Positions 5,388 through 52,437 of a stretch of DNA of 64,000 nucleotides are shown in pieces. The stretch's first letter is position 1; every line of letters starts with the position of its first letter. The notes under the pieces were generated by a model. It did not search any database. It was not told where the DNA came from and saw only the letters and a list, made by a program, of their open reading frames with translations. The DNA is from Paeniglutamicibacter psychrophenolicus (lineage in GTDB: Bacteria; Actinomycetota; Actinomycetes; Actinomycetales; Micrococcaceae): the NCBI RefSeq assembly GCF_030812255.1, contig NZ_JAUSSH010000007.1:1-64000 (forward strand), read 5' to 3'. A program made the position numbers and the translations under genes.

Positions 5388-5426
5388 CCAAGGCTCCGCA
5401 GCATGTGCGGGGCCTTTGCCTTTTTA
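5388..5426 (+). terminator. Rho-independent terminator after DUF3040 gene
   Basis: Stem AAGGCTCCGCA / TGCGGGGCCTT with a GCATG loop region, followed by TGCCTTTTT. Confidence 0.8.
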
Positions 5427-5887: not shown

Positions 5888-5940
5888 CGAAATAGAGGGG
5901 AATGGGGCAAGTTGCTTCTTTCAACCGGGAGGCGGTCTGT

Positions 5941-6369
5941 GTGTTCCTAGGAACTTATACACCGCGCCTGGATGAGAAGGGGCGATTAATCCTCCCGGCG
6001 AAATATCGTGACGAATTAGCCAATGGTTTAGTTCTGACTCGTGGCCAGGAGCGCTGCATCTACGTCTTTAGCCAACGTGAATTCGAGAAGCAGCATGAGC
6101 AAATGAGGCAAGCTCCGATCTCCTCACGCCAGGCCAGGGACTATGCGCGTGTTTTCCTCTCCGGCGCTTCGGATGAATTACCGGACAAGCAGGGGCGGGT
6201 CACCATTCCGTCCATGCTTCGTTCATATGCGGGGCTGGACCGTGAGGTCACAGTGATCGGCGCGGGCAACCGGGTCGAGATTTGGGATTCCACAGCGTGG
6301 AATGCCTACCTCGAAGAACAGGAGAATTCGTTCTCCGAAACGGATGACGAAGTACTTCCGGGATTCTAG
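5941..6369 (+). CDS. mraZ: Transcriptional regulator MraZ
   Basis: 142-residue AbrB/MraZ-fold DNA-binding protein, which forms rings and represses its own division and cell wall cluster. Two SpoVT/AbrB repeats are visible: [20 protein letters not shown] at the N-terminus and [14 protein letters not shown] in the middle. GTG 5941 is chosen over an in-frame ATG 13 codons upstream because the family begins at MFLGTY and GGGAGG sits eight bases before it. First gene of the dcw cluster; its likely operator lies 55-80 bases upstream. Confidence 0.93.
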
Positions 6370-6541
6370 GCACCACATGGTGACTGGAAACCGGCCAGTG
6401 GCTTGGACGAGATCTCCAGCCGCCCGTGCCACGCACATCCTGGCTCCACTTCCCCGGAGCCAGGCTGGGCAGCAGCGGGTCGGAGGGGGATCTGGTCTCA
6501 GCCAACAGATGAGGCACAATGCCCACGCGAAAGGGGGAGCG

Positions 6542-7537: not shown

Positions 7538-7539
7538 GT

Positions 7540-8256
7540 ATGAGCAACCGGACACCGCACCGCGTACGTTCTCGCGTCATCGAGCTACCCGCAACACAGG
7601 GTGCCAACGCGCTCAGCCAGGCCCCACAGCCCATACCGGCCTCCCGCCCGGAGGAATCAACCGCCAAGCGCCGCACCACCCTCTCGGTGGTGCCGGCGCT
7701 GGGGGCCAAGCGACGGGTTCCATTCATCGTCTCCATCTTCGTCCTGGTCATAGCCTCGGTCGTGGCGGTGCTGCTGATCAACGTGTACATCGCCAACGGC
7801 CAGTACACCGCGGTGGACCTGCGCGGACAGGAACGCGCGCTGTCCCAGGAAAACGAGGCCCTGCGCCAGGAAGCGCTGTACCTGGGATCCCCCCAGGTGG
7901 TTGCCAAGAAGGCTGCCGACCTGGGCATGGTCAAGCCCGGCGCACCCGCGGCCATCAACCTGGACACCGGCAAGGTGGCCGGGACCGCCACGGCCGCCGA
8001 AAAGCCCAGCGCCGAGAACCGGGCCAAGAGCGGGATCCTGAAGGCCCCGGCCAAGCCCGGAACCACGACGGAGGCCAAGGGCAAGACCGCGGCCAAGGAC
8101 ACGGAGACCGACGCCCCGGTGGCCGCCGTGGTGCCGCCGAAGTCCACAGCGGCCCGGACGCCGGTTCCGGCCGACGGCTCGCGCCCCGACTTCTCCCCGG
8201 CACAACTCAATGGCGGGACGATCCCCGCACCAAGCCTGAAGACCCCGGGGCAGTAG
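7540..8256 (+). CDS. ftsL: FtsL-like septal membrane protein
   Basis: 238 residues. A basic cytoplasmic N-terminus (~1-60) is followed by one membrane span (~61-83) and a short heptad-like segment (QYTAVDLRGQERALSQENEALRQEA), then an Ala/Lys/Pro-rich disordered tail. Position between rsmH and ftsI and topology fit FtsL, part of the FtsQLB complex that activates septal peptidoglycan synthesis. Sequence conservation in this family is weak, so the name rests mainly on context. The tail is long compared with FtsL of other phyla. Confidence 0.75.
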   Translation: MSNRTPHRVRSRVIELPATQGANALSQAPQPIPASRPEESTAKRRTTLSVVPALGAKRRVPFIVSIFVLVIASVVAVLLINVYIANGQYTAVDLRGQERALSQENEALRQEALYLGSPQVVAKKAADLGMVKPGAPAAINLDTGKVAGTATAAEKPSAENRAKSGILKAPAKPGTTTEAKGKTAAKDTETDAPVAAVVPPKSTAARTPVPADGSRPDFSPAQLNGGTIPAPSLKTPGQ

Positions 8257-8330
8257 CACCCCCGGAACCGGGGCCGCACCAGGCCCCCGATACGCACCAC
8301 CACGCCCACCCGGTATGAGCTGAGGACCGA

Positions 8331-10160
8331 ATGCCACCAAAATCCCCAACCACCGGAACGACCCACCTGCGCCTGCGCATGGTGGTGGCGATCTCCCTGG
8401 TGCTGTTGCTGATCACCGGCGGACGGCTGTTCTTCGTCCAGTCGCTCAATGCCAAGGCCGTGGCCGCCGAAGCGGTGGACAATCGAACCCGCTTCCAGGA
8501 AACACAACCCAGGCGTGGCCAGATCCTGGATTCCAAGGGCACAATCCTGGCCACCAGCGTCGATCGCTACGACCTGGTCATCGACCAGCGGAAGGTTGAT
8601 GCCGACAAGCCCATCGTGCGCAAGAAGCTCTCCGGTGGAACCACCCGGGAATCGGTGAGCATCGAGCAGGCCGTGGGCGAGCTTGCACAGCTCATCGACC
8701 AGGACATCGACACGGTGCGCACCGCGATCGTGGGCGATCCCGGGGCGAAGAAGAACGCCTACTCCGTTGTGGCCAAGGGAGTGACCCCCGAGGTCCGCAA
8801 CTCGGTCATGGAACTGCGCATCCCCACGCTGACCGGACAGCTGCGCAGCGAACGCCAGTACCCCAACGGGGTGGTGGCCGGGCCCCTGCTCGGCTTCGTG
8901 ATGAACACCGACGACCAGCAATCGCTCAAGGGCGCCGAGGGCCTGGAAATGAGCCAGGACAAGCGCCTGACCGGCACCCCCGGAACGCGGACCTACGAGG
9001 TCGGAGCCGACGGCGTGCGGATCCCCGTCGCCGAGACCACAGAGGTCCCCGCGGTCGACGGGCAGGACGTGAAACTGACCCTGGACGCGGACATCAACTT
9101 CATCGCCCAGGAAGAGGCGTTGAAGAAGCAGAAGCAGTTCAACGCCGAATGGGTCTCGGTGATCGTCGAGGAAGTCAAGACCGGACGGCTGATCGCCATC
9201 GGCGACTCCAACCAGCTTGACCCCAACGACCCCAGCGCCACCGAGGCAACGTTCCGCCGCTCGGCCTCCATCACCCAGGCCTTCGAACCGGGATCCACCG
9301 GCAAGGTCCCGACCTTCGCCGCGGCCCTCGAGGAGGGCGTGGTCAAGCCCACCGACGCCTTCAAGGTCCCCAACGCGTACACCATCAACAAGGAAACCAT
9401 CAACGACTCGTTGAAGCACTCCACCTACGACATGACCGTCGCGGGCATCTTCGCCCGCTCCTACAACACCGGCACGGTCATGATCGGCAACAAGATGAGC
9501 AACGAGACCCGCTACAAGTACATGAAGAAGTTCGGCCTCGGCAAGGCCATCGACATCGGCCTGTCCGGGGCCAGCCAGGGCATCCTGGCCAAGCCGCAGG
9601 ACTGGGAGCGGCGCCAGCAGTACGCGACCATGTTCGGCCAGGCCTACACCCAGACCGCGCTGCACACCGCGCAGATCACCCAGGCCATCGCCAACGGCGG
9701 GGTGCGCATCGATCCCACGCTGATCGATTCCTACGTCAACCCCGACGGCACCATCGAGAAGCCCGCGGCACCCAAGTCCGAGCGCGTGGTTTCCGCGAAG
9801 ACCTCCAAGGAGATGCTGCGCTTGATGGAGACTGTGGTCCTGGAGGGAACGGGTACTAAGATGGCTGTGTCCGGTTACCGCGTCGGCGGCAAGTCGGGCA
9901 CCGGCCAGGCCGCCGGGCCAAACGGCGGCTACGACGGCTACACCAACTCGTTCGCCGGGGTCGCCCCGCTGGACGACCCGCAGATCGCCGTCGTGGTCAC
10001 CATGTACCGCCCCAAGGGAGACTGGAAGTCCTGGTCCGTGGGCGACACCTTCAGCGAAGTCATGGGCAAGACCCTGAACGCCTACAACGTTCCGCCGAGC
10101 AATTCGAAGCCCAACGGGTACGACGTGTTCATCGGATCCGAACAAAAGAAATCCTGGTAA
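8331..10160 (+). CDS. ftsI: Septal peptidoglycan transpeptidase (PBP, FtsI)
   Basis: 609-residue class B penicillin-binding protein that cross-links septal peptidoglycan. It has a membrane anchor at ~15-35, then a PBP dimerisation domain (TRFQETQPRRGQILDSKG) and a transpeptidase domain. The active-site motifs are S322-TGK, S377-YN and K521-SGTG. A GAGGA ribosome site precedes the ATG. The stop codon overlaps the murE start (TAATG), indicating translational coupling. Works with FtsW at the septum. Confidence 0.93.
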   Translation: MPPKSPTTGTTHLRLRMVVAISLVLLLITGGRLFFVQSLNAKAVAAEAVDNRTRFQETQPRRGQILDSKGTILATSVDRYDLVIDQRKVDADKPIVRKKLSGGTTRESVSIEQAVGELAQLIDQDIDTVRTAIVGDPGAKKNAYSVVAKGVTPEVRNSVMELRIPTLTGQLRSERQYPNGVVAGPLLGFVMNTDDQQSLKGAEGLEMSQDKRLTGTPGTRTYEVGADGVRIPVAETTEVPAVDGQDVKLTLDADINFIAQEEALKKQKQFNAEWVSVIVEEVKTGRLIAIGDSNQLDPNDPSATEATFRRSASITQAFEPGSTGKVPTFAAALEEGVVKPTDAFKVPNAYTINKETINDSLKHSTYDMTVAGIFARSYNTGTVMIGNKMSNETRYKYMKKFGLGKAIDIGLSGASQGILAKPQDWERRQQYATMFGQAYTQTALHTAQITQAIANGGVRIDPTLIDSYVNPDGTIEKPAAPKSERVVSAKTSKEMLRLMETVVLEGTGTKMAVSGYRVGGKSGTGQAAGPNGGYDGYTNSFAGVAPLDDPQIAVVVTMYRPKGDWKSWSVGDTFSEVMGKTLNAYNVPPSNSKPNGYDVFIGSEQKKSW

Positions 10161-40976: not shown

Positions 40977-41002
40977 CTAGCAGCCGTAGTACAGCTCGAA
41001 CT
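40977..41002. repeat. attL: 26-bp direct repeat of glnA1 3' end
   Basis: Identical over 26 bases to 50185-50210. It begins CTAGCAGCCGTAG and contains the reverse complement of the last glnA1 codons (FELYYGC and stop). The two copies bound the integrated element. Confidence 0.92.
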
Positions 41003-41252
41003 GGCAAAGGGTAATTGGTAGGGGTTGGATACCGCCGAATTCCGCGTGATTCCGGGCTTTTCGTGGTTGGGCAGGAATGGCGAAAAATGACCGTTTGTAG
41101 ACCTCTTGCGGACTTCTTGCGGACTGGTGACCTCTTCCCGCCCCGAGAGTATCCAACAGGGAATGGTTCCCGGTCCTTAAGCTCGTGCCCACACTTTCGA
41201 CTCCTTGCAACAGGGAATCATGGTTCCGCGTTGCCGCTGGCATGATGTGATC

Positions 41253-41972
41253 ATGGGATTCTTTCAAAAACTATTCGGTGGCCGGTCAAGTCGTGATGCT
41301 GTTTCTACGGATTCGCATAAGCCTCCGATTGAAAAGCCGGCTCCCGTGATGGTCAACGACATTCCCGCACCACAGGCGAATGTTGGTGTACGCGAACGTT
41401 ACCGCGATTTGTCGCCAGGCGAAGCTCGCCGGCTTGAACGCCAGGCGCAGATCTATGATCGGGAACGAGAGCGGGCGGCCGCCGCCGGTAAGTCCGTGAA
41501 ACAGCTACGTGCTGGCCTGCTCGGCACAGAAGACACCAAAGTCGCGCTGGCCGCACTGAAGGCCGCCGGCGAGCCCATGCCAAAATTTCGACTGCGGGGA
41601 TGCGGCAAGGGGTTAGCTATCGCACTTCCTGACGGCCGCGTTATTGACCCGACAAGCATCTATCTCCGACCCTGGGACGTGTACGGCGCAAAGATCATGG
41701 GGACGGGCTATTACAAGGCAGGTAGCGCGCAACGTTCAGACGGGCAACAGCTCAGCTTGAAGCGAGAGCCTAAGAACGAGCACGACCCCAACGCTGTGGC
41801 GGTCATGACGCGCTCAGGTTCCGCCAAGATCGGTTATGTGCGCAAAGGCCAGGCCAAGTGGGTGGCTAAAGCAATGGACGCCGACGTGGAGCTGGTCGCC
41901 CATACAGTCATGGGCGGTTCACAGGTGTTAATCACCACGCCCGCAACATGGGCCGCGATCAACGGTCGGTAG
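41253..41972 (+). CDS. HIRAN-domain protein (candidate island cargo)
   Basis: 239 residues. N-terminal ~100 residues are polar with a basic helix (PGEARRLERQAQIYDRERER). A C-terminal HIRAN domain (~147-225) is recognised from GTGYYKAG, LKREPKNEHDPNAVAVM and IGYVRKGQAKWVAKAMD. HIRAN domains bind damaged or single-stranded DNA ends and are often fused to helicases or nucleases; none is fused here. Start at MGFFQKLFGGR: CATGAT lies six bases upstream, suggesting a leaderless mRNA. It is alone on the plus strand at the attL end, where satellites usually carry accessory or anti-phage genes. Confidence 0.7.
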   Translation: MGFFQKLFGGRSSRDAVSTDSHKPPIEKPAPVMVNDIPAPQANVGVRERYRDLSPGEARRLERQAQIYDRERERAAAAGKSVKQLRAGLLGTEDTKVALAALKAAGEPMPKFRLRGCGKGLAIALPDGRVIDPTSIYLRPWDVYGAKIMGTGYYKAGSAQRSDGQQLSLKREPKNEHDPNAVAVMTRSGSAKIGYVRKGQAKWVAKAMDADVELVAHTVMGGSQVLITTPATWAAINGR

Positions 41973-42310
41973 AAGGTTCCCATGCCTTAGCAGGACAAAG
42001 GCTCCCGGACTCTCGGCGGACTTCCCCGAATCGCACACGCTCGCGAGGTTTCCCGTAACCCTCGCGAAAGTCCTAGATCACAGCACGACGACAAAAGGCC
42101 CCCCAGGAGCTCATGTGAGCTACTGGGGGGCTTCGTCTTGCAGTCAATAACAGGGTTGGAAGGCGACAGAATCCTAATCTGAATAGCCACCTGCGTTTTA
42201 CTCGACTGCTGGCGCTGGCAGGTCATCGCAAACAACCCGTTCGCTCGCTGCCATCGTCCGGCACTTACCTTGTTGCAGCCCGCCGGTGACGTTGACGCCA
42301 AATCTAAGGG
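41973..42310. other. Non-coding region between HIRAN gene and convergent minus-strand operon
   Basis: About 340 bases. Apart from a strong hairpin (42098-42131) I see no gene or recognisable site. Confidence 0.6.
42093..42136. terminator. Bidirectional terminator in the element
   Basis: GCCCCCCAG (42098-42106) pairs with CTGGGGGGC (42123-42131), with a further AGCTCA/TGAGCT stem inside. The minus-strand tail is CCTTTTGT. It ends the convergent HIRAN gene and the minus-strand packaging operon. Confidence 0.75.
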
Positions 42311-42553
42311 TCAGATCGTGTGGGCGACTTCGCTCCACGGTCGGTCGGGGATTCGGCCTTCCCACCACGGCAGCGAGGCAACGCCGTCCGGCAGATTCTC
42401 AGTTGCCCAAGCGGTGCGGGCGGTATTCCATGCCTTCCACTGGTGGTATCCGCAGTCACCCTGCCAGTCTTCAAGCGCAAATTCGAGCACCCAAACCGGA
42501 ATTTCTGAACCGTCCAGGATGGAAACGAGCGGCTTTACCTTGCGGCGGGCCAC
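42311..42553 (-). CDS. Unknown 80-residue protein coupled to terminase small subunit
   Basis: Trp-rich (eight Trp) acidic protein of no recognised family. GTG start overlapping the stop of the terminase gene by one base (TAGTG), so translation is coupled. Last gene of the minus-strand module before the terminator. A small packaging or capsid accessory protein would fit the position, but nothing in the sequence proves it. Confidence 0.65.
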   Translation of the reverse strand: MARRKVKPLVSILDGSEIPVWVLEFALEDWQGDCGYHQWKAWNTARTAWATENLPDGVASLPWWEGRIPDRPWSEVAHTI

Positions 42554-42906
42554 TAGACGGCCCTCAATCCGCGGACGCCAACGCGTCGCTGAGGCAACCG
42601 CCCGGCCTCTTCGTCTTCTTCGAGGGGCAGGCGCAGCGAGGCAACCAGCTTGGCCAGGGTAATTGCCTGCTGGCGCGACTCCACAAGGGCCGGGTGAGCC
42701 TTCACGCCCTGCGGCGTGGTCACCGTGACACCCTCGGCACGGACGATGCTTTCCAGTGCGTCCAGCGCGTCAACAGCGCGGACAACCTGGAGCAACAGGG
42801 TCAGTTCGTGCGGGCCCAAATCGTACTCTTCAACGACGCTTTTCCACATCTTTTTGCCTCCCGCGTTCAGGTTCGGAGGCATTCTAGGGGTCTTGCCGGT
42901 AGTCAT
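42553..42906 (-). CDS. P27-family phage terminase small subunit
   Basis: 117 residues. The pattern GKKMWKSVVEEYDLGPHELTLL, then a helix with VRAVDALDALESIVRAEG, TVTTPQGVKAHPALVESR and LAKLVASLRLPL matches P27-type small terminases, which recognise phage DNA and start packaging. In a complete phage the large subunit follows; here an 80-residue unknown protein and then a terminator follow. In satellites a private small subunit redirects a helper phage's packaging machinery. The start has AAAGGAC nearby. Confidence 0.8.
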   Translation of the reverse strand: MTTGKTPRMPPNLNAGGKKMWKSVVEEYDLGPHELTLLLQVVRAVDALDALESIVRAEGVTVTTPQGVKAHPALVESRQQAITLAKLVASLRLPLEEDEEAGRLPQRRVGVRGLRAV

Positions 42907-43292
42907 TCTGGTGTCCTTTCATTGGAAACACGGGGATAAGGCCGTAAAAATAGGTCGATTCATCCAGGTCTTCTGGAGACGGAGAGCTAGGCCAGGGGGG
43001 AGACTGCAGGGCGGTGGACGAGCCCCTCCCCCCTGGGGTCTGTCTGGCGGTGCGGTTGGCTGGCCCGCGGTGTGGTTTTGGGCGGCTTGCGGGTGTTGCC
43101 GTGGGCGCCGGTTCGGCCGCTGGTGTGGGAGTCCGTTAGACGGGCTCCTGTGGTGTTGGTGGTGGTGCTTGGTGTGGCCCAACGTTGTCCGTGTTGGGCC
43201 ACACTGGATGGCAAGCGCCAGGGTTTGCCATGGCTGTTGCTATCCGTTTGCTATTGCTTTGCCATGGCTTGCCGCTTGGCTAGGTCGGCCGG
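42907..43292. other. 386-bp gap upstream of terminase small subunit; possible packaging site
   Basis: No convincing gene. The composition is strongly strand-biased (G/T-rich on plus). It holds CCCTCCCCCCTGGGG near 43025 and a perfect 12-bp hairpin at 43172-43204. In cos-type phages the cos site lies just upstream of the small terminase gene, so this is the obvious place to look for a cos/pac site of the element. Confidence 0.4.
43172..43204. repeat. Perfect 12-bp inverted repeat
   Basis: GTGTGGCCCAAC and GTTGGGCCACAC flank a nine-base loop. No T tract follows on either strand, so it is not an obvious terminator. Confidence 0.7.
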
Positions 43293-44075
43293 CTACTGTC
43301 CGGCGTTTTCTGCTGCCTGCTGCTGGGCGCGTGCTTCTGCCTGTCGCTGCTGCTCTCGGGTCTGGCTCAATGCGACGGCGCGGGCGCGCACATCGTCGTA
43401 GTCGGTGGCCAGGTCTACCGTGATGCCGTTACACAAGGCGTCCCAGACTCCCTTTTTGCGGCCGGTGGTGGTGAGCTCTCCAAGGTCTGCGCCTAGTCGG
43501 TCGGCTTCTTCGGCGGTGGCTCGCAGGTAGTGCAAGATGCCGGTTCTTACTCCCGGCTGGCCCGCAAGGTGGAACATCAGCGTGCTCCAGTTCTGCACGA
43601 TTAGATCCGTTGTGTAGAGCGCGGCCTGTGCGTGGATGCGCACAATGGCGTTCTTGTCGCCGGGGCTGGCAAAGTTGCGATCCCACAGCGGTTCGTCTCC
43701 CAGCACCTTGTGGGCGTCGCGCAGCACTTCGGCGGCGGCGTCGAACTTCTCTTTCATCTCGGCAATCAGCGTTTCCCGCTGCGCCTTGATGTGGGCGATG
43801 TGGCGCAACGATTCGCTGTAGGCGTGCTTGGTCTGCATGTAGTGGGTGTAGTTGGCGATGTTGTGCCGGGTGACGGCCCGCTGCACGTCTGGATCTTCGG
43901 CTGGGTCGTTGCCGGCTTCCAGGCTTTCGAGGATGACCGCGGCCACATCATCGCTGGTGATGCGCTCGGGGATGACCAGGGGCCGGGGCTCGTAGGGCTT
44001 GTAGCCTTCAAGGCCTGTGGCGTTGATGGCGTGCTCTGCGGTCTTGGCGAACGTTGCGTTGTTGGCGGTAGACAT
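43293..44075 (-). CDS. Unknown 260-residue protein of the element
   Basis: No recognised family. Largely helical by composition. A polar N-terminus is followed by a helix-rich core with HYMQTKHAYSESLRHIAHIK and EMKEKFDAAAEVLRDAHK, and the tail is Gln/Ala/Arg-rich coiled-coil-like (ALSQTREQQRQAEARAQQQA). AAAGG lies 11 bases before the ATG. It begins 24 bases downstream of a terminator for the preceding operon and so may have its own promoter or depend on read-through. Position next to the terminase gene suggests a late or packaging role, which is inference. Confidence 0.65.
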   Translation of the reverse strand: MSTANNATFAKTAEHAINATGLEGYKPYEPRPLVIPERITSDDVAAVILESLEAGNDPAEDPDVQRAVTRHNIANYTHYMQTKHAYSESLRHIAHIKAQRETLIAEMKEKFDAAAEVLRDAHKVLGDEPLWDRNFASPGDKNAIVRIHAQAALYTTDLIVQNWSTLMFHLAGQPGVRTGILHYLRATAEEADRLGADLGELTTTGRKKGVWDALCNGITVDLATDYDDVRARAVALSQTREQQRQAEARAQQQAAENAGQ

Positions 44076-44098
44076 GTTGGTGTTGCCTTTCGGGTATG

Positions 44099-44127
44099 AA
44101 AAAAGCCGTCACGGGGTTGTGACGGCT
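44099..44127 (-). terminator. Rho-independent terminator
   Basis: On the minus strand AGCCGTCAC and GTGACGGCT flank an AACCCC loop, followed by six T. It ends the operon of small scaffold-like genes. Confidence 0.9.
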
Positions 44128-44145
44128 TGGGGTTCGGAGTGTTGG

Positions 44146-44556
44146 TTAGCTGCGCAGGTGCGGGGCCGACATGAGGTTGAGCATGGCGCGCAAGTCGCGG
44201 GGCATCCCGGCCGCTGGCGGGGGCGTGGTGCCCTGGCCGTCGATGACCGGGGCGCCAATGTCGCCCATCCATGCGCTGAGTGCTTGGGCGTGCTGGGTGA
44301 GTTCTTCGGGCGTGTTCCCGACCAGGGCGGCGGCGGGCACGTTGTGGGCGGCGGCGATGCGTTCCACAACGGTTGCCTTGGCCTGCTGCTGTGCGGTGTC
44401 GGCCTCCCATTGCCGGAAGGGGTCTATCTGGGCTGCGGGTGCCGGCGGGTCGGTGGGCTCGGCCGGCGGGGTTGCGGCCGGCTCGGCTTCGAGGGGTGCG
44501 CCGGTAAACAGTGCTCGGCTCAGTGCGGCCCAGGGGTTCGGGTCGTTGGTGGTCAT
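44146..44556 (-). CDS. Scaffold-like protein A
   Basis: 136 residues. A Pro/Ala-rich N-terminus (~20-45) is followed by a helix with VVERIAAAHNVPAAALVGNT and EELTQHAQALSAWM. The same module occurs in the neighbouring 94-residue protein, so the two are paralogues. The pattern (helix, V-P-A, short loop, EEL-HAQAL) resembles C-terminal parts of actinophage capsid scaffolding proteins; that similarity is by eye only. Overlaps the upstream gene by four bases. Confidence 0.65.
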   Translation of the reverse strand: MTTNDPNPWAALSRALFTGAPLEAEPAATPPAEPTDPPAPAAQIDPFRQWEADTAQQQAKATVVERIAAAHNVPAAALVGNTPEELTQHAQALSAWMGDIGAPVIDGQGTTPPPAAGMPRDLRAMLNLMSAPHLRS

Positions 44557-44837
44557 CGTGGCATCAGTCCTTTGATGGTTTGGGCGTGTGCGGTCAGTTC
44601 GGCTTCATCGGCGCCGCGCAGCACGCCGGCGGGCACTCCGGCAGCGGTGGCTACCTTGTGGATCAGTGCGGCGCGTGCCTGGTTGGAATCAAGCGCGGCG
44701 AGCTTGGCGGCGAGTTCGTGCTCTTGGGCTTCGAGTTCGGCAAATTTGCCGTTCAGGGCTTCGAGTTCGTCGCGGGTGTCCTTGGCCTTGGTTTCCCATT
44801 CGCGGGCTGCTTTTTTCCAGTCGTGTTCATCAGGCAT
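44553..44837 (-). CDS. Scaffold-like protein B (coiled coil)
   Basis: 94 residues. An N-terminal coiled coil (WETKAKDTRDELEALNGKFAELEAQEHELAAKLAAL, about residues 13-48) precedes the module ALIHKVATAAGVPAGVLRGA and AELTAHAQTIKGLM shared with the downstream paralogue. Coiled coil plus this tail is typical of phage scaffold proteins, which set capsid size. Overlaps the upstream 55-residue gene by eight bases. Confidence 0.68.
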   Translation of the reverse strand: MPDEHDWKKAAREWETKAKDTRDELEALNGKFAELEAQEHELAAKLAALDSNQARAALIHKVATAAGVPAGVLRGADEAELTAHAQTIKGLMPR

Positions 44838-44997
44838 TGGTGGTTTCTTCCTCTGCTTCGAGCCAGTGGAGCCACCGGCGAAAATGGGCGATGGTCTTGT
44901 GTTCGTAGGTGACTCTTAGGCCGGTGCTGTCGGTGTGCACGTCTTCGGCGGTGCCGGGGACGGTAAACGTCCCTTCGGCGGTGATTACTTGGATCAT
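44830..44997 (-). CDS. Small 55-residue protein
   Basis: Short frame beginning MIQVITAEGTFTVPGTAEDV and ending LEAEEETTNA. Its start overlaps the upstream stop by four bases (ATGA) and its end overlaps the next start by eight, so it is embedded in a tightly packed operon. Beta-rich N-terminus, Trp-rich helix afterwards. Family not recognised. Similar small proteins lie among phage head genes. Confidence 0.65.
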   Translation of the reverse strand: MIQVITAEGTFTVPGTAEDVHTDSTGLRVTYEHKTIAHFRRWLHWLEAEEETTNA

Positions 44998-45275
44998 GGC
45001 TTGCTTCCTGATTCGGTGGGGGTGGTGCTGCGGCTGGTGTGGAGCGGCGCGGCGATCGCTGGCGTTGGCTCTGCTTCTGGCTCAGCTTCTATTGCGTCGA
45101 TGATGCGGTTTGCAAAGCGGACGGCGTGGCCCTCGGTGACTGTGGCAAGGAACGGCCCAAAGCGTAGTTGCACGCCGCGCCCTCGGTTGTTGTCTAAGTT
45201 GACCGGTCGGGCCCGTAGGCGCTTTCCGATTGCGTAGTCCGGTTCGCCTTTTGGTCGGGTCTTGGGGTTGTTCAT
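44994..45275 (-). CDS. Unknown 93-residue protein
   Basis: Basic N-terminus (MNNPKTRPKGEPDYAIGKRL), a short beta-rich core (VQLRFGPFLATVTEGHAVRF), then a Pro/Thr/Ser-rich tail. No family recognised. AGGAAGG seven bases before this internal ATG decides the start; the longer in-frame opening is rejected. Co-directional with its neighbours, 28 bases after the gene before it. Confidence 0.6.
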   Translation of the reverse strand: MNNPKTRPKGEPDYAIGKRLRARPVNLDNNRGRGVQLRFGPFLATVTEGHAVRFANRIIDAIEAEPEAEPTPAIAAPLHTSRSTTPTESGSKP

Positions 45276-45303
45276 TTGGTGCCTTCCTGGCAGTCGTGGT
45301 GAT

Positions 45304-45555
45304 TCAGCATGGGGGCTCGTCGGGAAGAACGATGTAGTAGCCGGAGTTCTCGTTCCCGTCCGAACAGTGGGAGACTCGGTGCCCGATGGGCGTTCCCTCG
45401 GGGTCAGCCAGGGGCCAGCCGTGGGTGTGAGTCTTGGGGCAGTGCGGACACTTGATTTCGACCGTCCGCACACCGCCCGGCTTGTGGATATGAACGGCGG
45501 TGACGGTGGCGTTGGGAATGCTTGGCGTGGGTCGGAACCCTTGGCGGTGGATCAT
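45304..45555 (-). CDS. Small zinc-ribbon-like protein
   Basis: 83 residues. Cysteines in IKCPHCPKTHTHGW, with a later GHRVSHC, form a possible single zinc ribbon or knuckle. Function unknown. GAGAGG precedes the ATG. It is the first gene of the minus-strand packaging-side operon and starts next to the repeat-rich candidate origin. Confidence 0.6.
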   Translation of the reverse strand: MIHRQGFRPTPSIPNATVTAVHIHKPGGVRTVEIKCPHCPKTHTHGWPLADPEGTPIGHRVSHCSDGNENSGYYIVLPDEPPC

Positions 45556-45583
45556 GGTGGAACCTCTCTGTGCTTGTGTAGGC

Positions 45584-45788
45584 GTACGTAAGATACGTAC
45601 TAACGTAAGAAGGGCTTGCATCCCTTTGTTTGCGCGGTTTCTTCGTGCGTTTCGGGCTACGCACTCGGTTACGCACAAAGCGCGTGGGCACTAAGTGCGT
45701 AACCGAATGCGTAGCCGTTTACGCGCTAAAGTTCCCTGTGTTTATGCGGCAACGGAGGGCTTTCCACGTAAATACGTATCTTGCGTAC
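45584..45788. repeat. Nested inverted repeats: candidate replication origin
   Basis: Inner pair: 45655-45676 and 45695-45716, 22 bases each, reverse complements with one mismatch (arms contain GGTTACGCAC / GTGCGTAACC). Outer pair: GTACGTAAGATACGTA at 45584-45599 and TACGTATCTTGCGTAC at 45773-45788, one mismatch. Further TTACG/CGTAA and GCGT motifs crowd the space. The right outer arm falls inside the 3' end of the replication gene. Repeats beside a rep gene are where satellites such as SaPIs have their origin. Confidence 0.6.
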
Positions 45789-47106
45789 CCCGCGCATGTT
45801 CGCGGGCGTAGAAGACCACCTTGGATCGGCCGTCCGTCTTGACCTCTTGCTGAACAATTGATCCCTGCTGCATGAGGGCCGCAAGGTCGGCGGTGATAAG
45901 TGCGGACTTCCGATTTTTCTTGTAGAGGTCTGCATATATCTCGGCTCGGCTCTTGCCCTGGGTGCCGCCCGCCCGGATGAACTGCGCCAACTTGCCATGC
46001 TCGGTAGATCCCTTATCAACATGCGATTCGAAGATGTACCTTGCACTGTCCACGCTGTACTGTTCAAATGCCGCCGCGGCCCTCAAATCATCGAGGCTGA
46101 CAACGTTTCTTTGATCCAGCAATGCGTAGACCATGGCAATTCGCAGCGTGTACGGCGCACGTCGGCTTGTGGCCTTCGTGAGCAGCGTGTCTGGGCGTTC
46201 CGCGGTCAACTTGTAGTAGAGCGGTTCCCAGTAGCTCTCCGCCTCTGGCGACAACTTGATGCGGCCTGCCTTGCGGGCCATTGCGACGGATTCAGCGAAG
46301 TATTCCGCCGTCCCCTTGATGACCTCCTGTGGGGCGTTGCCGCCGTTTGGGAGACGCTTGGAGCGCCGCGAACACACGAACAGGAATCTGTTCAAGGTGC
46401 CGCCGTCCACGTCGCTACCGCTGACAACCTTTTGCAGCTCGCCAGGGCTGATATGCCCCACGATGACGATGTGTGGTGCCGTTGCCGTCATGCTGCGCCG
46501 GTTCATCACGGATAAGTCCCGGCCGTCCCACGCTAGGCGGAGAGTCGGGCCCAGCGTCGATCCTTCCCGGTTTGATCGTTTGAAGACCTGGGCTATTTCG
46601 TCCTCCATCACGAAGAGGCGCTTGTCCAGAACGCCGGGCTCAAAGTGCTTTTCGTCGGCAGGGTCTCCACTGTCATCCTTCACGGATTCAATGAGACCTT
46701 CACCGGACGATAGGCCGGTCTTATGTGCTGGGGGATTCAGCACACTTCCCAGGTACTCTCGGACTACGCGCCATATGACGCTATGGGAAGTGCCTTTAGC
46801 TCCAACGGAGGTTGTGCCAACGATCATGGGCCACAACCTCGCATGGTGCGGTGAGTTCGCAATGAGCATGTGCGCCGATTCTTGTTCCGCCCCGACTGCC
46901 CATCCGAACGATGCCAGCAGGTCTGCCAGCAACGCGGCGGGATCGGCTTCGGTGGTCGGCTCCAAGCTGCGCACAATTTCACCCGCCGCGCCGTGAAATG
47001 CTTCCTCTCTCAAAGTTGGCCATTCACGGTCAACCTGGATCGGTTCGGCCTCGGCTTCATGGGCGCGAACCTGCTCCAACTCCCACTGAAGGGGGTTTTC
47101 CGTCAT
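45742..47106 (-). CDS. DUF3987-like replication protein (P-loop ATPase)
   Basis: 454 residues. MIVGTTSVGAKGTSHSVIW (~94-112) looks like a Walker-A-type loop (non-canonical). VMEDEIAQVF may be Walker B, and APHIVIVGHISPGELQKVV and GTLNRFLFVCSRRSKRLP are typical of DUF3987/YfjI-type helicase-like proteins. The C-terminal ~80 residues look like a winged-helix domain. No primase domain is present. By position and family it should initiate replication of the excised element at the adjacent repeats. Its start lies inside the upstream gene (50-base overlap). Confidence 0.72.
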   Translation of the reverse strand: MTENPLQWELEQVRAHEAEAEPIQVDREWPTLREEAFHGAAGEIVRSLEPTTEADPAALLADLLASFGWAVGAEQESAHMLIANSPHHARLWPMIVGTTSVGAKGTSHSVIWRVVREYLGSVLNPPAHKTGLSSGEGLIESVKDDSGDPADEKHFEPGVLDKRLFVMEDEIAQVFKRSNREGSTLGPTLRLAWDGRDLSVMNRRSMTATAPHIVIVGHISPGELQKVVSGSDVDGGTLNRFLFVCSRRSKRLPNGGNAPQEVIKGTAEYFAESVAMARKAGRIKLSPEAESYWEPLYYKLTAERPDTLLTKATSRRAPYTLRIAMVYALLDQRNVVSLDDLRAAAAFEQYSVDSARYIFESHVDKGSTEHGKLAQFIRAGGTQGKSRAEIYADLYKKNRKSALITADLAALMQQGSIVQQEVKTDGRSKVVFYAREHARGTQDTYLRGKPSVAA

Positions 47107-47380
47107 TCGGAGATCTCCTCAAGTTTTCGCGACGCCGTTTCTCTCGGTGCGCTTGTATGTCGATGAAGTCAGCCGTTGACTTCACGAGGGCTTTGTTCAC
47201 TCCGTAGTTGAGTTCCATAGCCCGGATGATCCGGGCCAGGTGGTCATGGTCGATGCTGCGGGCCAGACCTGTTTCGTAGCCCATTCGGAACAGCTCCCAC
47301 GCGGTTCTGTCGGTGCGTATGAGCTGTTCGAGGTAAGCGGATTCTGGGTCTGGCCCAGTGGCTAGGGGTTGCTGGGTCAA
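47057..47380 (-). CDS. Unknown 107-residue protein
   Basis: Helical protein with no recognised family. It contains SAYLEQLIRTDRTAWELFRM and DFIDIQAHREKRRRENL, a strongly basic stretch near the C-terminus that could bind nucleic acid. TTG at 47380 is chosen because AGGAG lies ten bases upstream and the preceding small gene ends at 47397. Overlaps the replication gene by 50 bases, so the two are co-expressed. Confidence 0.55.
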   Translation of the reverse strand: MTQQPLATGPDPESAYLEQLIRTDRTAWELFRMGYETGLARSIDHDHLARIIRAMELNYGVNKALVKSTADFIDIQAHREKRRRENLRRSPNDGKPPSVGVGAGSRP

Positions 47381-47396
47381 CGGCTGCGCGCTCCTG

Positions 47397-47504
47397 TCAG
47401 AACGGGCCAGTGAATACGCTTGGGAGCGCGCAAACAATGAGTGCTACAAAGACGCAGGTACACCAGAAGACGCCGCGGGCGGTGAGCTGGATTGCGCGCT
47501 TCAC
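47397..47504 (-). CDS. 35-residue single-span membrane peptide
   Basis: Very short frame with GTG start overlapping the upstream stop by four bases (GTGA). It encodes MKRAIQLTAR followed by a hydrophobic span (GVFWCTCVFVALIVCALPSV). Basic N-terminus and one span indicate a small inner-membrane peptide. The overlap makes it plausible; no homologue recognised. Confidence 0.4.
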   Translation of the reverse strand: MKRAIQLTARGVFWCTCVFVALIVCALPSVFTGPF

Positions 47505-47905
47505 TTGGTGGCCCGGGTGACGATTCCCCACGCCTCAACCATTGCGGCCGGGGACAGGCCGGTATCAATGGCGGCGCGGCACAACTGGGTCACAGTGGTT
47601 GCCTGGGTGGCCAGCTCGGGAGTCTCCCGCAGGTATTCGACCGCCGTCACGCGTGCGGCCTCGTAGGACGCATCACGGCGGCGCTGTAGCTCCGCTTCAA
47701 GCTCGGTATCGGTGAATGCCTCGATAGCGGCGGGCGCGGTGAACGGCTCAAGGTCGGTCACGGGGAGAATGCCCGCGGGGTTCTTGCCGCCGGTGGTGTC
47801 CCACTCGACTACGGCGGAAACGCCGTTGGTGCTGATGAGGGTTCCGCGCTCGTCCGTGGCGGCGTGGATGACCGTATCGCCGGGGGTGAAGGTATGGTTA
47901 GACAT
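47501..47905 (-). CDS. Unknown 134-residue protein
   Basis: N-terminal ~55 residues look like a small beta-barrel (MSNHTFTPGDTVIHAATDER, then VSAVVEWD), as in SH3/KOW-type folds. A helical C-terminus follows (ELEAELQRRRDASYEAARV, LCRAAIDTGLSPAAMVEAWG). Function unknown. AAAAGGA before the ATG at 47905 decides the start against a 42-codon upstream extension. Confidence 0.6.
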   Translation of the reverse strand: MSNHTFTPGDTVIHAATDERGTLISTNGVSAVVEWDTTGGKNPAGILPVTDLEPFTAPAAIEAFTDTELEAELQRRRDASYEAARVTAVEYLRETPELATQATTVTQLCRAAIDTGLSPAAMVEAWGIVTRATK

Positions 47906-47930
47906 ATCAATTCCTTTTCTGAGGGTTTGG

Positions 47931-48191
47931 TTAGGCGGCTTCGGAATACTGTTTGGCGACGGTTCCGGGGCCGTTTTTCTGTTGCAGGACGTTTCGGACC
48001 GCCGTTTCGGCTGTCGGGTCCGAATGCCCAAATAGGTGATGCAGCTCGGAAATACCTATGAGCTGTTGCCGCTTGTGCCACTTGAGTGCAAGACGCTGGG
48101 CTTTGCCCTTGCTAATCTCGTGCCCGTTGGCCTCGGCGTAATCACGGATCAGCTTTTCGTTGGCTGTCTGGGTGGGGATATTTTCCGGCAT
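47931..48191 (-). CDS. Unknown 86-residue protein
   Basis: Basic helical protein. LIRDYAEANGHEISKGKAQR and WHKRQQLIGISELHHLFGH suggest a small DNA-binding or replication accessory protein, but no family is recognised. AAGGAAAC lies before the ATG. It is the second gene of the early minus-strand operon. Confidence 0.55.
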   Translation of the reverse strand: MPENIPTQTANEKLIRDYAEANGHEISKGKAQRLALKWHKRQQLIGISELHHLFGHSDPTAETAVRNVLQQKNGPGTVAKQYSEAA

Positions 48192-48252
48192 GGAAAAGTT
48201 TCCTTGTCTCTTCGTCCGTGGCGAACCTCGGAGCGGATGCGGTGCGTTGATC

Positions 48253-48447
48253 TTAGGAAGCGGCTTTGTCGAACGCTTCGTTGATCCAGGCGTCTACGTC
48301 TGCCCGGCGATACATGACGCGCCCGCCGATCTTTGCCGACTTCGGCCCGGTTTCCTTGTGGCGGTAGTACCGCAGCGTGTTCTCCGGGATGCGGGTCATC
48401 TCCGCAACCTCGGCCATGGTCATCAGCTGGTGTGTCTCGGTGTTCAC
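48253..48447 (-). CDS. AlpA/MerR-type excisionase-regulator
   Basis: 64-residue winged-helix DNA-binding protein. TMAEVAEMTRIPENTLRYYR is the MerR/AlpA helix-turn-helix, and KIGGRVMYRRADVDAWINEA is the wing and C-terminal helix usual in excisionase-like proteins. It may act as recombination directionality factor and/or activator of the early genes. GTG 48447 is preceded by GAGGGGAAG. First gene after the divergent promoter. Confidence 0.8.
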   Translation of the reverse strand: MNTETHQLMTMAEVAEMTRIPENTLRYYRHKETGPKSAKIGGRVMYRRADVDAWINEAFDKAAS

Positions 48448-48490
48448 GGCTTCCCCTCTTTCATGGTGTGTTTGAGCCTTACAAGATGTA

Positions 48491-48520
48491 ACCATAGATC
48501 ATGAATTAACGCTGAGTCAA
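48491..48520 (-). promoter_or_regulatory. Early leftward promoter of the element
   Basis: Minus-strand TTGACT (48520-48515), 18 bases, then TATGGT (48496-48491). Its -35 overlaps the first operator half-site. Confidence 0.65.
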
Positions 48521-48552
48521 CACGACACGTGTTGAGTCCTTACAACACGTGT
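48518..48552. promoter_or_regulatory. Repressor operator array
   Basis: Half-sites CAACACG (48518-48524), ACACGTGTTG (48525-48534) and CAACACGTGT (48543-48552). The last two are a perfect 10-bp inverted repeat with an eight-base spacer; the first two form another. They cover the -35 regions of both divergent promoters. Confidence 0.75.
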
Positions 48553-48560
48553 GAAAGTAT
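48532..48560 (+). promoter_or_regulatory. Repressor promoter
   Basis: TTGAGT (48532-48537), 17 bases, then AAGTAT (48555-48560). Six bases later comes the ATG at 48567 with no Shine-Dalgarno, so the repressor mRNA may be leaderless. The promoter lies within the operator array, implying autoregulation. Confidence 0.55.
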
Positions 48561-48566
48561 TAGGGC

Positions 48567-49097
48567 ATGAAGATACCCACAGATGAAAATTTCGGGGCCA
48601 TGGTGCGGGAGTACCGCGAGCTTAGAAAATGGTCGATGACCGAGTTTGCAAGCAAATTGCGGGACGCGGGACTCGCAAACTTCCATCCGACAACGATTAG
48701 CCGAATGGAGCGAGGCGAGCGCCCCGCAAAAATCGGCGAAGCGGCCGTAATCGCCCAAGTCCTCGGAACCCAATTAGACAACTTGGTTGATACTCCACTA
48801 GAGGCTTATTTTGAACTTGAGTTTGAGGGAAAGCAGCTGGAAATGGTCGCCAAGTGGGCGGCTTGGTGGGCCATGAGGGCCGAAGATGACAAGGCAGACA
48901 TTCTGCGCCTCGCGTCCGATTTGGAGCAGTTGGCCGATGAGGGCAAAGTTCCCGGTGATGAACTCGAAGCGAGCGTGGCATACATTGCGAAATGGCGGGC
49001 CCTGGTCGCACAGGATCGCGTGAAATTCTGGCTTGACCATATCCGCGGGCTAAGTGAGGATGAGCGCGAGGAATTTAAGAGAGAGCACGTGAGATAA
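48567..49097 (+). CDS. XRE-family phage-type repressor
   Basis: 176 residues. The N-terminal helix-turn-helix (MVREYRELRKWSMTEFASKL, then FHPTTISRMERGERPAKIGE) is of XRE/Cro-CI type. The helical C-terminal ~100 residues with DKADILRLASDLEQLADEG probably mediate dimerisation. There is no LexA/CI-type peptidase domain, so induction is not expected to be by RecA self-cleavage; an anti-repressor would be needed. Divergent from the AlpA/MerR-type gene across the operator array; two bases separate it from the integrase. Confidence 0.8.
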   Translation: MKIPTDENFGAMVREYRELRKWSMTEFASKLRDAGLANFHPTTISRMERGERPAKIGEAAVIAQVLGTQLDNLVDTPLEAYFELEFEGKQLEMVAKWAAWWAMRAEDDKADILRLASDLEQLADEGKVPGDELEASVAYIAKWRALVAQDRVKFWLDHIRGLSEDEREEFKREHVR

Positions 49098-49099
49098 CC

Positions 49100-50188
49100 G
49101 TGGCGTCGATCAAGAAACGACCTAACGGGACGTGGCGGGCGCGCTATCGTGATGAAGCTAACAAGGAACATGCGCGGCACTTCAAGCGGAAGATCGACGC
49201 GCAAAACTGGCTAGATGAAGTCACCGCGGCTATTGTAACAGGAACTTACGTTGATCCAAAGAGCGCAAAAACTACCGTCTCGTAATGGTCGCAATCGTGG
49301 CTGAAAGGCTACGCGAACAATCGGCCCTCAAGTCTGCGCCAAGCCAAGACGCATATGAAGCGGATCTGTGCGGCGTTCGGTGATCGTCCGCTGAAAGATG
49401 TGCGGCCCTCGGAGGTTCGGTCATGGACGGCATCACTAAAGGCTGAGGGGCTGGCAGATTCGACGATCTACGCGCTACATGCCAGGCTTGGGCACCTGTT
49501 CTCGGATGCAGTGCATGACGGGATCATTCCCAAGTCCCCGGTGAGCCGTAGAACGTCGCCGCCGGCAGGAAAGCAGCGGGCGTATGTCGCCACGACTGAA
49601 CAGGTCTGGGCGCTGCATGAGGCCATGCCGGACGGAATGCGCAACGTCGTCTTGCTGGGCGCGTTTGTCGGCCTGCGGGTCGCTGAAATAGCGGCGCTGC
49701 GGGTGGGAGACGTGGATTCGCTGCGCGGGTTCGTGAACCCGGCGATCCAGTACCCAAGTGAACCGCTGAAAACGGAAGTGTCTAAGACGCCGGTTCCGAT
49801 ACCGCGGGATCTCGCTTTTGAGCTGAACAAGAATCCGGCGAAGTGGGGGAGTGCAACGTTCGTGACAAGTGAGTTCGGTCGATCGGTCGCACCGTACACC
49901 ATCGAAGCCCGGTTCAGGACGGCCAGGGCGACCGTGGAGGGCCTGCCGGAAGATTTCCGTATCCACGACCTGAGGCACTACTACGCGTCGCTCCTGATCG
50001 CGTCAGGGCTCGATGTGAAGGTTGTCCAGGCGAGGCTACGTCACGCGTCGGCAAAGACAACCTTGGACGTTTACGGGCACTTGTGGCCAGATACAGATGA
50101 GTCCGCACGTACCGCCGTGAATAACGTTCTGGCGGCTCGTGCGGACTCTCTGCGGACTAAAGGCGATTTAGCCCCTAGATTTGGCTAG
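49100..50188 (+). pseudogene. int: Tyrosine integrase interrupted by an in-frame ochre codon
   Basis: Phage-type tyrosine recombinase of about 362 codons, split by TAA at 49283-49285 (codon 62) in an otherwise continuous frame. The first part (from GTG 49100) is an arm-binding domain (SIKKRPNGTWRARYRDEANK). The second has the core-binding domain and catalytic domain with Arg in GLRVAEIAAL, HDLRHYYASLL, RLRHASAKTTLDVYGHLW (nucleophilic Tyr near residue 325). An ATG at 49355 could restart translation but would lose the arm-binding domain. The reading frame on either side is intact, so this is a recent mutation, a sequencing error, or readthrough. Confidence 0.85.
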
Positions 50189-50210
50189 CAGCCGTAGTAC
50201 AGCTCGAACT
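50185..50210. repeat. attR: 26-bp repeat inside glnA1 3' end
   Basis: Second copy of the att core, identical to 40977-41002. Here it is the true end of glnA1 (last eight codons including TAG), so integration restores a complete glnA1. It overlaps the end of the integrase gene by four bases. Confidence 0.92.
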
Positions 50211-51609
50211 CGTACGGGTTCGGGCGCAGCGACAGCGGCTTGATTTCGTATTCGCGCTTGTATTCGATCCAGGTGCGGATCAGGTCCTCGGTGAACACGT
50301 CGCCCTCGAGCAGGAAGTCGAAGTCGTTCTCCAGGGCCTCAAGGGCCTCGTCCAGCGAGGCCGGGGCCTTCTGGATGTCCTTGGCTTCCTCGGCGGGCAG
50401 CTCGTAGAGGTCCTTGTCGATCGGGTCCGCGGGCTCGATGCGGTTCTTGATGCCGTCCAGGCCGGCCATCAGCTGCGCGGCGAAGGCCAGGTACGGGTTG
50501 CACGCGGCATCCGGTGCGCGGAACTCGATGCGCTTGGCCTTCGGGTTCGAGCCGGTGACCGGGATGCGGATGCCTGCGGAGCGGTTGCCCTGCGAGTACA
50601 CCATGTTGACCGGGGCCTCGTAGCCCTTGACCAGGCGGCGGTAGGAGTTCACGGTCGGGTTGGTGAAGGCGAGCACGGCGGAGGCGTGCTTCAACAGGCC
50701 GCCGATGTACCAGCGGGCGGTGTCGGACAGGCCGGCGTAGCCCTTCTCGTCGTAGAACAGCGGGACGCCGTTGGACCACAGCGACTGGTGGCAGTGCATG
50801 CCCGAGCCGTTGTCACCGAAGATCGGCTTGGGCATGAAGGTTGCGGACTTGCCCCAGGCATCGGCCACGTTCTTGACGATGTACTTGAACTTCAGGATGT
50901 CATCGGCCGAGTGGGTCAGCGTGTTGAACTTGTAGTTGATCTCCGCCTGGCCGGCTGCGCCGACCTCGTGGTGGGAGCGCTCGACCTCAAGGCCGGCAGC
51001 TTCAAGTTCCAGGCAGATGGCATCGCGCAGGTCGGCCTGCTTGTCGGTCGGGGAAACCGGGAAGTAACCGCCCTTGAAGGGGGTCTTGTAGCCCTGGTTG
51101 CCGCCCTCTTCCTTCTTGCCGGTGTTCCACGGGGCCTCGACGGAGTCGACCTTGTAGAAGGAGCCCTGCGGCTTGGACTCGTACTGCACGTTGTCGAAGA
51201 TGAAGAACTCGGCCTCGGGTGCAAAGAAGGCGGTGTCGGCGATGCCGGTCGAGGAGAGGTAGGACTCGGCGCGCTCGGCCACGCCGCGCGGATCGCGGTG
51301 GTACGGCTCGCCGGTGCGCGGGTTCACGATGGAGAAGTTGAACGCGAGGGTCTTCTCGAGGCGGAACGGATCGATGTAGCCGGAAGTGACATCGGGGATC
51401 AGCTGCATGTCGGAGTCGGAGATGCCGGCGAAACCGCGGATCGAGGACGCATCGAACAGCTGTCCGTTGATGAAGAAATCCGCGTCGACGGTGCGTGCCG
51501 GGACGTTGAAGTGCTGCTGGATGCCGGGAAGGTCGGTGAAGCGGATGTCAACGAACTTGACGTCTTCTTCGGCAATGTATGCGATGACTTCTTCGGGACT
51601 CTTGAACAT
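50185..51609 (-). CDS. glnA: Type I glutamine synthetase GlnA1
   Basis: 474-residue main glutamine synthetase (ATP + glutamate + ammonia to glutamine). Active-site segments are [64 protein letters not shown] and [24 protein letters not shown] (Tyr ~402) is the adenylylation site, so GlnE at 37.1-40.2 kb should control it. Start at [13 protein letters not shown] with AGGAG nine bases upstream. Its last 26 bases form attR of the satellite-like element. Confidence 0.96.
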
Positions 51610-52391: not shown

Positions 52392-52437
52392 AGCAAGGTG
52401 GGTGTTGGAACCAACTGGTTCCAACACCCACCTTGCT
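52392..52437. terminator. Perfect 22-bp stem palindrome between convergent genes
   Basis: Bases 52392-52413 and 52416-52437 are exact reverse complements with only AC between. The arms begin AGCAAGGTGGGTG. It has no T tract, but it lies between the convergent RDD and DUF4191 genes and would end or block both transcripts. Confidence 0.75.

Follow-up and report, generated by a model that had tools for sequence, protein, structure and literature searches.

The window analysed here, a stretch of 64,000 nucleotides of Paeniglutamicibacter psychrophenolicus (contig NZ_JAUSSH010000007.1, positions 1–64,000), contains an integrated element at the 3′ end of the glutamine synthetase gene glnA, which is very probably a helper-dependent phage satellite. 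As described in an earlier note on this DNA, 9.2 kb at the glnA1 3′ end was bounded by a perfect 26-bp direct repeat. The attachment (att) core was located at positions 40977–41002 (distal copy) and 50185–50210, and the length of the element was 9,208 bp. The copy at 50185–50210 formed the final 26 bp, and thereby the C-terminal codons, of glnA (50185–51609, minus strand). No further copy was found on either strand of the window at up to six mismatches. The glnA 3′ end was searched in 15 genomes of the genus, including its own. The empty sites that the earlier note had proposed to look for were found in three of the 14 other congeners (L209, L211, and L212; L and G numbers denote loci and genomes), where the distal flank continued unbroken into the core with identities of 95, 96, and 85% over about 600 bp; the element boundaries are therefore considered real. 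The flanks at glnA were different or rearranged in the remaining 11 congeners.

Gene content of the element

The integrase and a regulatory switch were located at the glnA-proximal end. The integrase reported earlier was present, is of the tyrosine type, and is oriented towards glnA, but an in-frame stop had been missed. An N-terminal fragment (49100–49285, plus strand), with 69–75% identity to the integrase N-termini of sister elements, was closed by a TAA at 49283–49285. The C-terminal catalytic open reading frame (ORF) followed in the same frame (49355–50188, plus strand; Pfam Phage_integrase, 8.8e-15). Sense codons occupied the stop position in L007, L043, L053, and L056. When the C-terminal ORF was compared with that of the glnA-site element L056, the ratio of nonsynonymous to synonymous substitution rates (dN/dS) was 0.175 (dS 1.5). 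Because the C-terminal part is under purifying selection, the break looks recent or represents an assembly error, and the integrase of this copy appears broken from its reading frame. The integrase of L051 (15878–16941) was also frame-disrupted, close to the position of the window stop.

The divergent repressor/AlpA-type switch of the earlier note was confirmed as a divergent pair, but AlpA fell below the Pfam cut-off and the HTH_17 and PHROG excisionase families were better matched. The helix-turn-helix repressor (48567–49097, plus strand) matched HTH_31 (1e-9) and a PHROG transcriptional repressor (2.6e-7), and the AlpA/MerR-like excisionase-regulator (48253–48495, minus strand) matched HTH_17 (3.1e-12) and PHROG excisionase (3.6e-12). 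Candidate operators, composed of overlapping inverted repeats of 11 nt (91%) and 10 nt (100%), were located between the two genes (48514–48552).

The leftward run after the switch was composed of small ORFs, a DUF3987 helicase, small proteins, two scaffold-like proteins, p260, the small terminase subunit (TerS), and p80. TerS (42553–42906, minus strand; PHROG, 1.7e-17) showed 58–68% identity in the nine sister elements aligned. Scaffold-like protein 1 (44553–44837, minus strand) matched PHROG scaffolding (4e-14) and the MrSmee scaffold (38% identity, 3e-4). It contained a coiled coil and an AAGVPAxxLRG motif, and was aligned with the MrSmee and Rousseau scaffolds, ending before their C-terminal tail. 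Scaffold-like protein 2 (44146–44556, minus strand; PHROG scaffolding, 5.2e-9) had an altered N-terminus and kept the MrSmee/Rousseau-type C-terminal tail (APVIDGQ..TP). CpmB of SaPI1, a Staphylococcus aureus pathogenicity island (SaPI), is described as carrying the C-terminal capsid-binding motif of the scaffold and competing with it (PMC5644958), and by analogy the same mode is proposed for the tail of scaffold-like protein 2.

The hallmark protein p260 (43293–44075, minus strand) was defined by its family alignment and was predicted by AlphaFold to be mostly helical (pLDDT 82, pTM 0.69). No convincing relative of p260 was found in Pfam, PHROG, PDB, or viral-fold comparison. Its gene position suggests a role in morphogenesis.

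The DUF3987 helicase, the likely replication protein (45742–47106, minus strand; DUF3987, 4.3e-14; PHROG helicase, 8.2e-20), showed 73% identity to its counterpart in G220/L007 and a dN/dS of 0.128, and had no relatives in the viral contig set. Although a likely replication protein was present as claimed previously, the adjacent repeats came down to a single inverted repeat of 42 nt, imperfect and lying 3′ of the helicase gene (45642–45729). This repeat is a candidate origin, with no support from the short-repeat test. Iterons were rejected there: the maximal 6-mer count in 186 bp was 4, and at least 4 was reached in 346 of 2,059 windows, which is ordinary.

No match for the large terminase subunit (TerL), portal, capsid, or lysin was found in the element with Pfam, PHROG, and phage queries. 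The combination of a small terminase and scaffold-like proteins without a match for large terminase, capsid, portal, or lysis genes, on which the earlier note had relied, was therefore confirmed by profile and phage-query searches.

Related loci in Micrococcales

TerS matches were obtained in 26 of 395 genomes of the family, and 20 loci from 19 genomes were collected, leaving out G287:C4, G376, G151, G262, G145, G255, and G072. At the level of the order, 13 of 396 genomes had matches to the p260 profile, and these gave 11 loci, nine of which appear real. Two weak p260-like matches, in G595 and G608, were discarded because they sat among apparent host genes, as was a match in L049 that was judged by eye to be ribosome recycling factor. 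Together with the window element and L007, which was reached via the helicase, the set comprised 31 loci from 30 genomes, with the 30 loci besides the window being from Micrococcales. A TerS scan of the wider genome contig set gave eight loci, from Arthrobacter rhombi, A. koreensis, A. echini, Arthrobacter sp. Br18, Arthrobacter sp. H5, Micrococcus sp., Agromyces allii, and a contig that had been assigned to Myxococcota by binning. The A. koreensis DSM 16760 locus (L237) coincides with L043, and its element has a full-length integrase.

p260 was called in 20 of the 31 loci, and a recognised TerS was located downstream in 14 of these 20. The comparison of gene order in related genomes proposed by the earlier note showed that p260, TerS, and p80 are commonly kept in this order in homologous elements, some of them at the same glnA site. 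TerS, the helicase, and the C-terminal part of the integrase were under purifying selection (dN/dS 0.07–0.24, with dS above 1 in six of nine pairs). Two transposase gene copies in opposite orientations were observed between p260 and TerS in L045 (10081–13009).

Flanking repeats were sought in 26 of the 31 loci, with L040, L044, L048, L055, and L074 left out, and defined the ends in 17 of the 26. The sizes ranged from 7.7 to 13.3 kb (median 9.5 kb), and 14 of the 17 repeat-bounded elements were 8.3–10.3 kb. Repeats detected in L042 (15 bp), L046 (14 bp), and L076 (14 bp) were rejected as element ends. The targets were the 3′ end of glnA (window, L056, and L080), the 3′ end of a yajQ-like gene (L007, L043, and L051; the name yajQ is our assumption), the 3′ ends of tRNA genes (L038, L039, L041, L049, L050, L075, and L079), and the 3′ ends of tmRNA genes (L052, L073, and L081); the ends of L077 were defined by repeats at an unassigned site. 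Therefore, glnA is one among several targets of the family, and the same glnA site was used by two related elements besides that of the window, the first from a different genus and the second from a different family.

The packaging motor was sought with two profiles. phrog_2 alone was insufficient because it misses Footloose and Hum25, two of the four test phages, and phrog_9 (terminase large subunit), which detects TerL of all four fully fetched test phages, was added for this reason. phrog_9 had zero matches in the 31 loci, and among the 30 genomes it matched only G220, G587, and G706, each outside the element locus. phrog_2 had no match in the 31 loci and strong matches elsewhere in G380, G587, and G104, in addition to weaker ones. 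When 17 phage queries (TerL, portal, capsid, major tail, and lysin) were run against the 31 loci, only a capsid homologue in L054 and weak lysin (endolysin) matches in L045 and L052 were obtained. The capsid gene of L054 (5489–6364) was confirmed by PHROG (3.8e-32). TerS loci that also contained a major capsid homologue (L054 5489–6364, L244 317–1189, and L241 6612–7502) formed a subgroup resembling the Mycolicibacterium JSForest2 record.

Tape-measure-like proteins were found in five sister elements, L051 (6012–9110, 1032 aa), L056 (5903–8836, 977 aa), L053 (10627–12936, 769 aa), L076 (6745–9312, 855 aa), and L080 (7918–9579, 553 aa), and their genes were located downstream of TerS or p260. 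The best PHROG label of the L053 protein was endolysin, with tape measure second, and the L080 matches were moderate. In all three elements with known ends (L051, L056, and L080), the gene was inside the att repeats. In L242 (8458–11124) and L243 (749–3739), TerS was followed by an ORF with 40–42% identity to that of L056. Furthermore, L050 contained a polysaccharide-lyase protein (7006–9288) and L049 a GDSL-type tail protein (4941–7049), with a same-cluster copy in L055 (3986–6094). These large proteins, inside or beside the satellites, possibly have an adhesion or depolymerase function. No tape measure protein (TMP) was found in the window element.

The remaining genes of the window element were small or located at its far end. 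On the minus strand, an 86-aa protein (47931–48191) had no PHROG match below 0.05, a 134-aa protein (47501–47905) was weakly similar to L007 and L039 (~4e-4), and a 126-aa ORF (47057–47437) was conserved in L039 with 74% identity over 82 aa. An 83-aa protein (45304–45555) showed 56% identity over 52 aa in L007. A small protein of the widespread c2 family (44994–45275) was represented by 26 called members across the loci, with several copies in some of them, and the small protein p55 (44830–44997) had homologues with 36–52% identity in L037, L039, L042, and L044. p80 (42311–42553) had homologues with 31–56% identity directly downstream of TerS in eight loci. At the far end, in the orientation opposite to the leftward genes, a HIRAN-domain protein (41205–41972, plus strand; Pfam HIRAN, 9.9e-17; PADLOC candidate PDC-M03B, 1.8e-9) is likely cargo in the 3′ slot. 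HIRAN or HIRAN-like proteins were observed again near this slot in L073 (10538–11035) and L077 (8270–8881), with shared PHROG and PADLOC families, and these recurring proteins matched a PADLOC candidate defence family. Outside the element, a perfect 22-nt inverted repeat with a 2-nt loop, perhaps a terminator, was located beyond glnA (52392–52437), and the window (contig C7) opened with extended homopolymeric runs of C and of G within positions 1–140, including 32 C at 104–135, probably an assembly artefact.

The cos-like site upstream of terS

A cos-like region, absent from the features listed in the earlier note, was located upstream of terS (42940–43010, minus strand), with CTGGATGAATCGACC following the cleavage point that is predicted between 42989 and 42988. 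The sequence CTGGATGAATCG was identical upstream of terS in six elements (window, L037, L041, L042, L043, and L044); before it came a stretch rich in C and a TAG(C) point that was conserved. A matrix was built from 18 of the 25 terS-upstream sequences, omitting the seven without an evident site (L045, L049, two of L052, L054, L055, and L056). With this element matrix, the physical genome end of Rousseau ranked first of 80,640 positions and that of Footloose second of 79,782, neither phage having been used in its construction. The ends of MrSmee and Hum25 ranked 12th of 82,490 and 42nd of 85,696, respectively, and these two phages are not independent tests because both were included in the alignment that revealed the site. 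The best of seven offsets at the AbbyDaisy end was reached by 2.5e-5 of the background, and the AGM4 end, annotated as a cos-site, by 4.4e-4. The conserved point corresponded to the physical end, within one base, in six of the nine phage records tested.

When the comparison was reversed, a matrix was built from the ends of the six phages that fit, and the three non-fitting record ends were omitted. The best terS-upstream site then ranked tenth or higher for 13 of 25 sequences (~6 expected) and first for five of 25 (~0.6 expected). Four of these five first ranks were the aligned site, and that of L048 was another site. In addition, L043 agreed with AbbyDaisy at 13 of 14 positions to the right of the cut. 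Taken together, the forward and reverse ranks support, at the family level, a cos sequence resembling the physical ends of Arthrobacter, Brevibacterium, and Microbacterium phages, while the site of the window element itself is assigned mainly by homology.

Two other searches gave no usable candidate. A blastn search of the cos region against phages gave chance matches only. The pattern CTGGATGAATCGRCC was searched in the viral contig set, and its matches were taken as chance because no relative of TerS, p260, p80, c2, or the helicase was found in the 80 loci listed.

The satellite reading, its rivals, and known systems

The absence of TerL, portal, and capsid matches, the recurring gene order and size, and the empty sites support the reading of the earlier note. 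The element is very probably a genuine helper-dependent satellite with a design like that of phage-inducible chromosomal islands (PICIs); this reading is strong for the family, and the present copy is possibly immobile. In the proposed cycle, the repressor would keep the element silent at glnA until a phage protein relieves repression. The integrase and excisionase would release the element by recombination between the two 26-bp cores, the arrangement of which is seen here although the integrase of this copy appears broken, and the DUF3987 helicase, judging by its family, would drive replication to concatemers. The element TerS would bind its own site just upstream of terS and recruit the helper TerL to cut at the cos-like sequence, a step for which comparison gives the site and only suggests the action. 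The two scaffold-like proteins, perhaps with p260, would compete for the helper capsid protein and produce a smaller head. From their homology and the uniform element size, such a head may hold about one quarter of a helper genome of roughly 40 kb. The four phages fetched whole were 39.7–42.7 kb, AbbyDaisy was 54.9 kb, and AGM4 was 36.1 kb; with a genome of one quarter the size, a T=3 head would be expected to fit, provided that the head of the helper is T=7. The helper tail and lysis genes would complete the particle, and the tape-measure-like protein of some sister elements would reset or protect the tail.

Several observations weigh against the satellite reading. Transfer, excision, and particle formation are predictions from the sequence. 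The integrase gene is interrupted after codon 61. No helper TerL was found in the host genome (G000) by PF03354, MrSmee TerL, and phrog_9, and phrog_2 gave only 7.4e-4; a helper would come from outside the host. No scaffold match was obtained for nine proteins picked near p260 or TerS in eight sister loci, so that the scaffold-like pair may be confined to the window element or may have diverged too far in the others. p260 had no fold match at E ≤ 0.001 in viral and PDB libraries and evolves fast (dN/dS 0.28–0.77). Of the nine record ends tested, those of LuckyBarnes, Montesquieu, and JSForest2 did not fit the element matrix, and the best register was one base off in MrSmee, Hum25, and AGM4. 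With the phage-end matrix, the window site ranked 11th of 18,336 near terS and 81st of 127,936 window-wide, which is not significant alone.

A full prophage in decay, deprived of its genes for head, tail, and lysis, would also contain TerS, scaffold, and integrase genes of phage origin, with the integrase broken. However, gene order and approximate size are repeated in different families and at many att sites, TerS and the helicase are under purifying selection, and independent decay is not expected to converge on 8–10 kb. The truncated known prophage named in the earlier note as the outcome that would overturn its reading was not borne out, given the missing TerL, portal, and capsid matches and the narrow size range of most repeat-bounded elements. 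This explanation is largely refuted by the conserved family and is very unlikely. Equally unlikely is a non-phage integrative island, possibly for defence, which captured terS by chance and moves otherwise. The HIRAN cargo matches a candidate defence family, whereas TerS and the cos-like site recur together, sister elements have tape-measure or capsid genes, and no transfer gene was found among the Pfam and PHROG labels obtained, no dedicated search having been made.

The chances are evenly divided on whether the lineage is a live satellite of which this copy is a fossil locked in by the integrase stop. The TAA interrupts a reading frame that is under purifying selection in its C-terminal part when compared with L056, and the L051 integrase is likewise disrupted; on the other hand, the stop may be an error of the draft assembly (35 contigs), and another integrase could act in trans. 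Headful packaging at a pac site, with the conserved sequence upstream of terS being a mere leader or promoter, is improbable. Satellite TerS pairs with pac packaging in SaPIs, as described in PMC5052747, and the window site is weak by the phage matrix, but the conserved point lies at the physical ends in most records and L043 closely matches AbbyDaisy right of the cut.

When compared with PICIs, the satellite element was PICI-like, with PICI membership not shown. It has an integrase, although interrupted, and divergent regulators including a master repressor. Its putative replication module consists of the DUF3987 helicase and one inverted repeat, with no short-repeat enrichment. Its size of 9,208 bp lies below the 12–15 kb typical of PICIs, as does the family median. 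The own capsid, portal, and TerL of capsid-forming PICIs (cf-PICIs) were not matched in the window, and the sister L054 has a capsid gene. The P4 module consists of Psu, Sid, and the alpha primase. None of these was named in the general Pfam/PHROG scans, in which no search was aimed at them.

The element shares with pac-type SaPIs and Gram-positive PICIs, as SaPI1 and SaPIbov1 are described, the integrase at att, divergent repressor, excisionase, replication gene, capsid-redirecting scaffold mimic, and TerS without TerL (PMC6092414, PMC5644958). By these descriptions it is set apart from pac-type SaPIs (~15 kb, pac) by its 9.2-kb length, DUF3987 helicase, cos-like site, and p260. Packaging at a helper-like cos site resembles the cos-type SaPIbov5 and the Escherichia coli PICI EcCICFT073. 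In the accounts covered, operon I of SaPIbov4/5 is replaced except for the terS 3′ region, and EcCICFT073 lacks TerS and uses Rpp (PMC5052747, PMC6092414, PMC6739421), whereas TerS and the cos-like site adjoin here.

Among actinobacterial systems, the candidate Mycobacterium PICIs (PMC10654092) are similar in tRNA att sites and, in some, scaffold and terminase genes, but as described their definition rests on a gene for the major capsid protein, and the window element had no match to one. The Streptomyces satellites Mulch and Flayer (PMC10690885), likewise actinobacterial satellites of siphophages, are described as encoding TerL, portal, and capsid, unlike the window element. A related TerS (33%) was found in the 11-kb Mycolicibacterium records JSForest1, JSForest2, and Maddie1. 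By annotation, which was used for JSForest2 only, that record has no TerL and has scaffold and tape measure genes, but differs in its capsid and head-tail genes, serine integrase, and an end that does not fit the cos matrix. These 11-kb records (L002, OR387116.1) look like satellites deposited as phages. A survey of actinobacterial prophages, in the part covered, merely suggests that small elements might be satellites (PMC10023795).

The satellite TMP idea is already known because of the precedent of Vibrio cholerae PLE satellites, which are described as inserting their own TMP into chimeric tails, with putative tmp genes also shown for cf-PICIs (PMC12987554). The likeness to PLE was sought for TMP alone and concerns the sister elements, in contrast to the window element; the occurrence of a satellite TMP in this lineage is new to us. 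No description of the family was found in the satellite literature covered, which does not by itself establish absence from print.

The kind of satellite is itself already known, and what is new here is TerS beside a cos-like site, p260, and the tail-gene variants. A more far-reaching reading, to which we give somewhat less than an even chance, is a new Micrococcales-wide satellite lineage with a private TerS and cos, forming ~T=3 heads by split scaffold mimics and p260, in which several members also replace the helper tail ruler or adhesion-type genes, so that a 9–13 kb parasite reprograms both head and tail. The strategies described in the sources covered are pac with TerS, cos without TerS, cos with Rpp, and own TerS with TerL, and the actinobacterial satellites described there carry their own capsid genes. 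If true, a lineage that has TerS and a cos of its own but no capsid gene would represent a packaging strategy outside those described. Arthrobacter-type hosts, for which many siphophages have been deposited, are suited to testing how the choice of TerS and that of cos each contribute to packaging and whether a satellite tape measure alters tails, and p260 provides a handle for finding more members.

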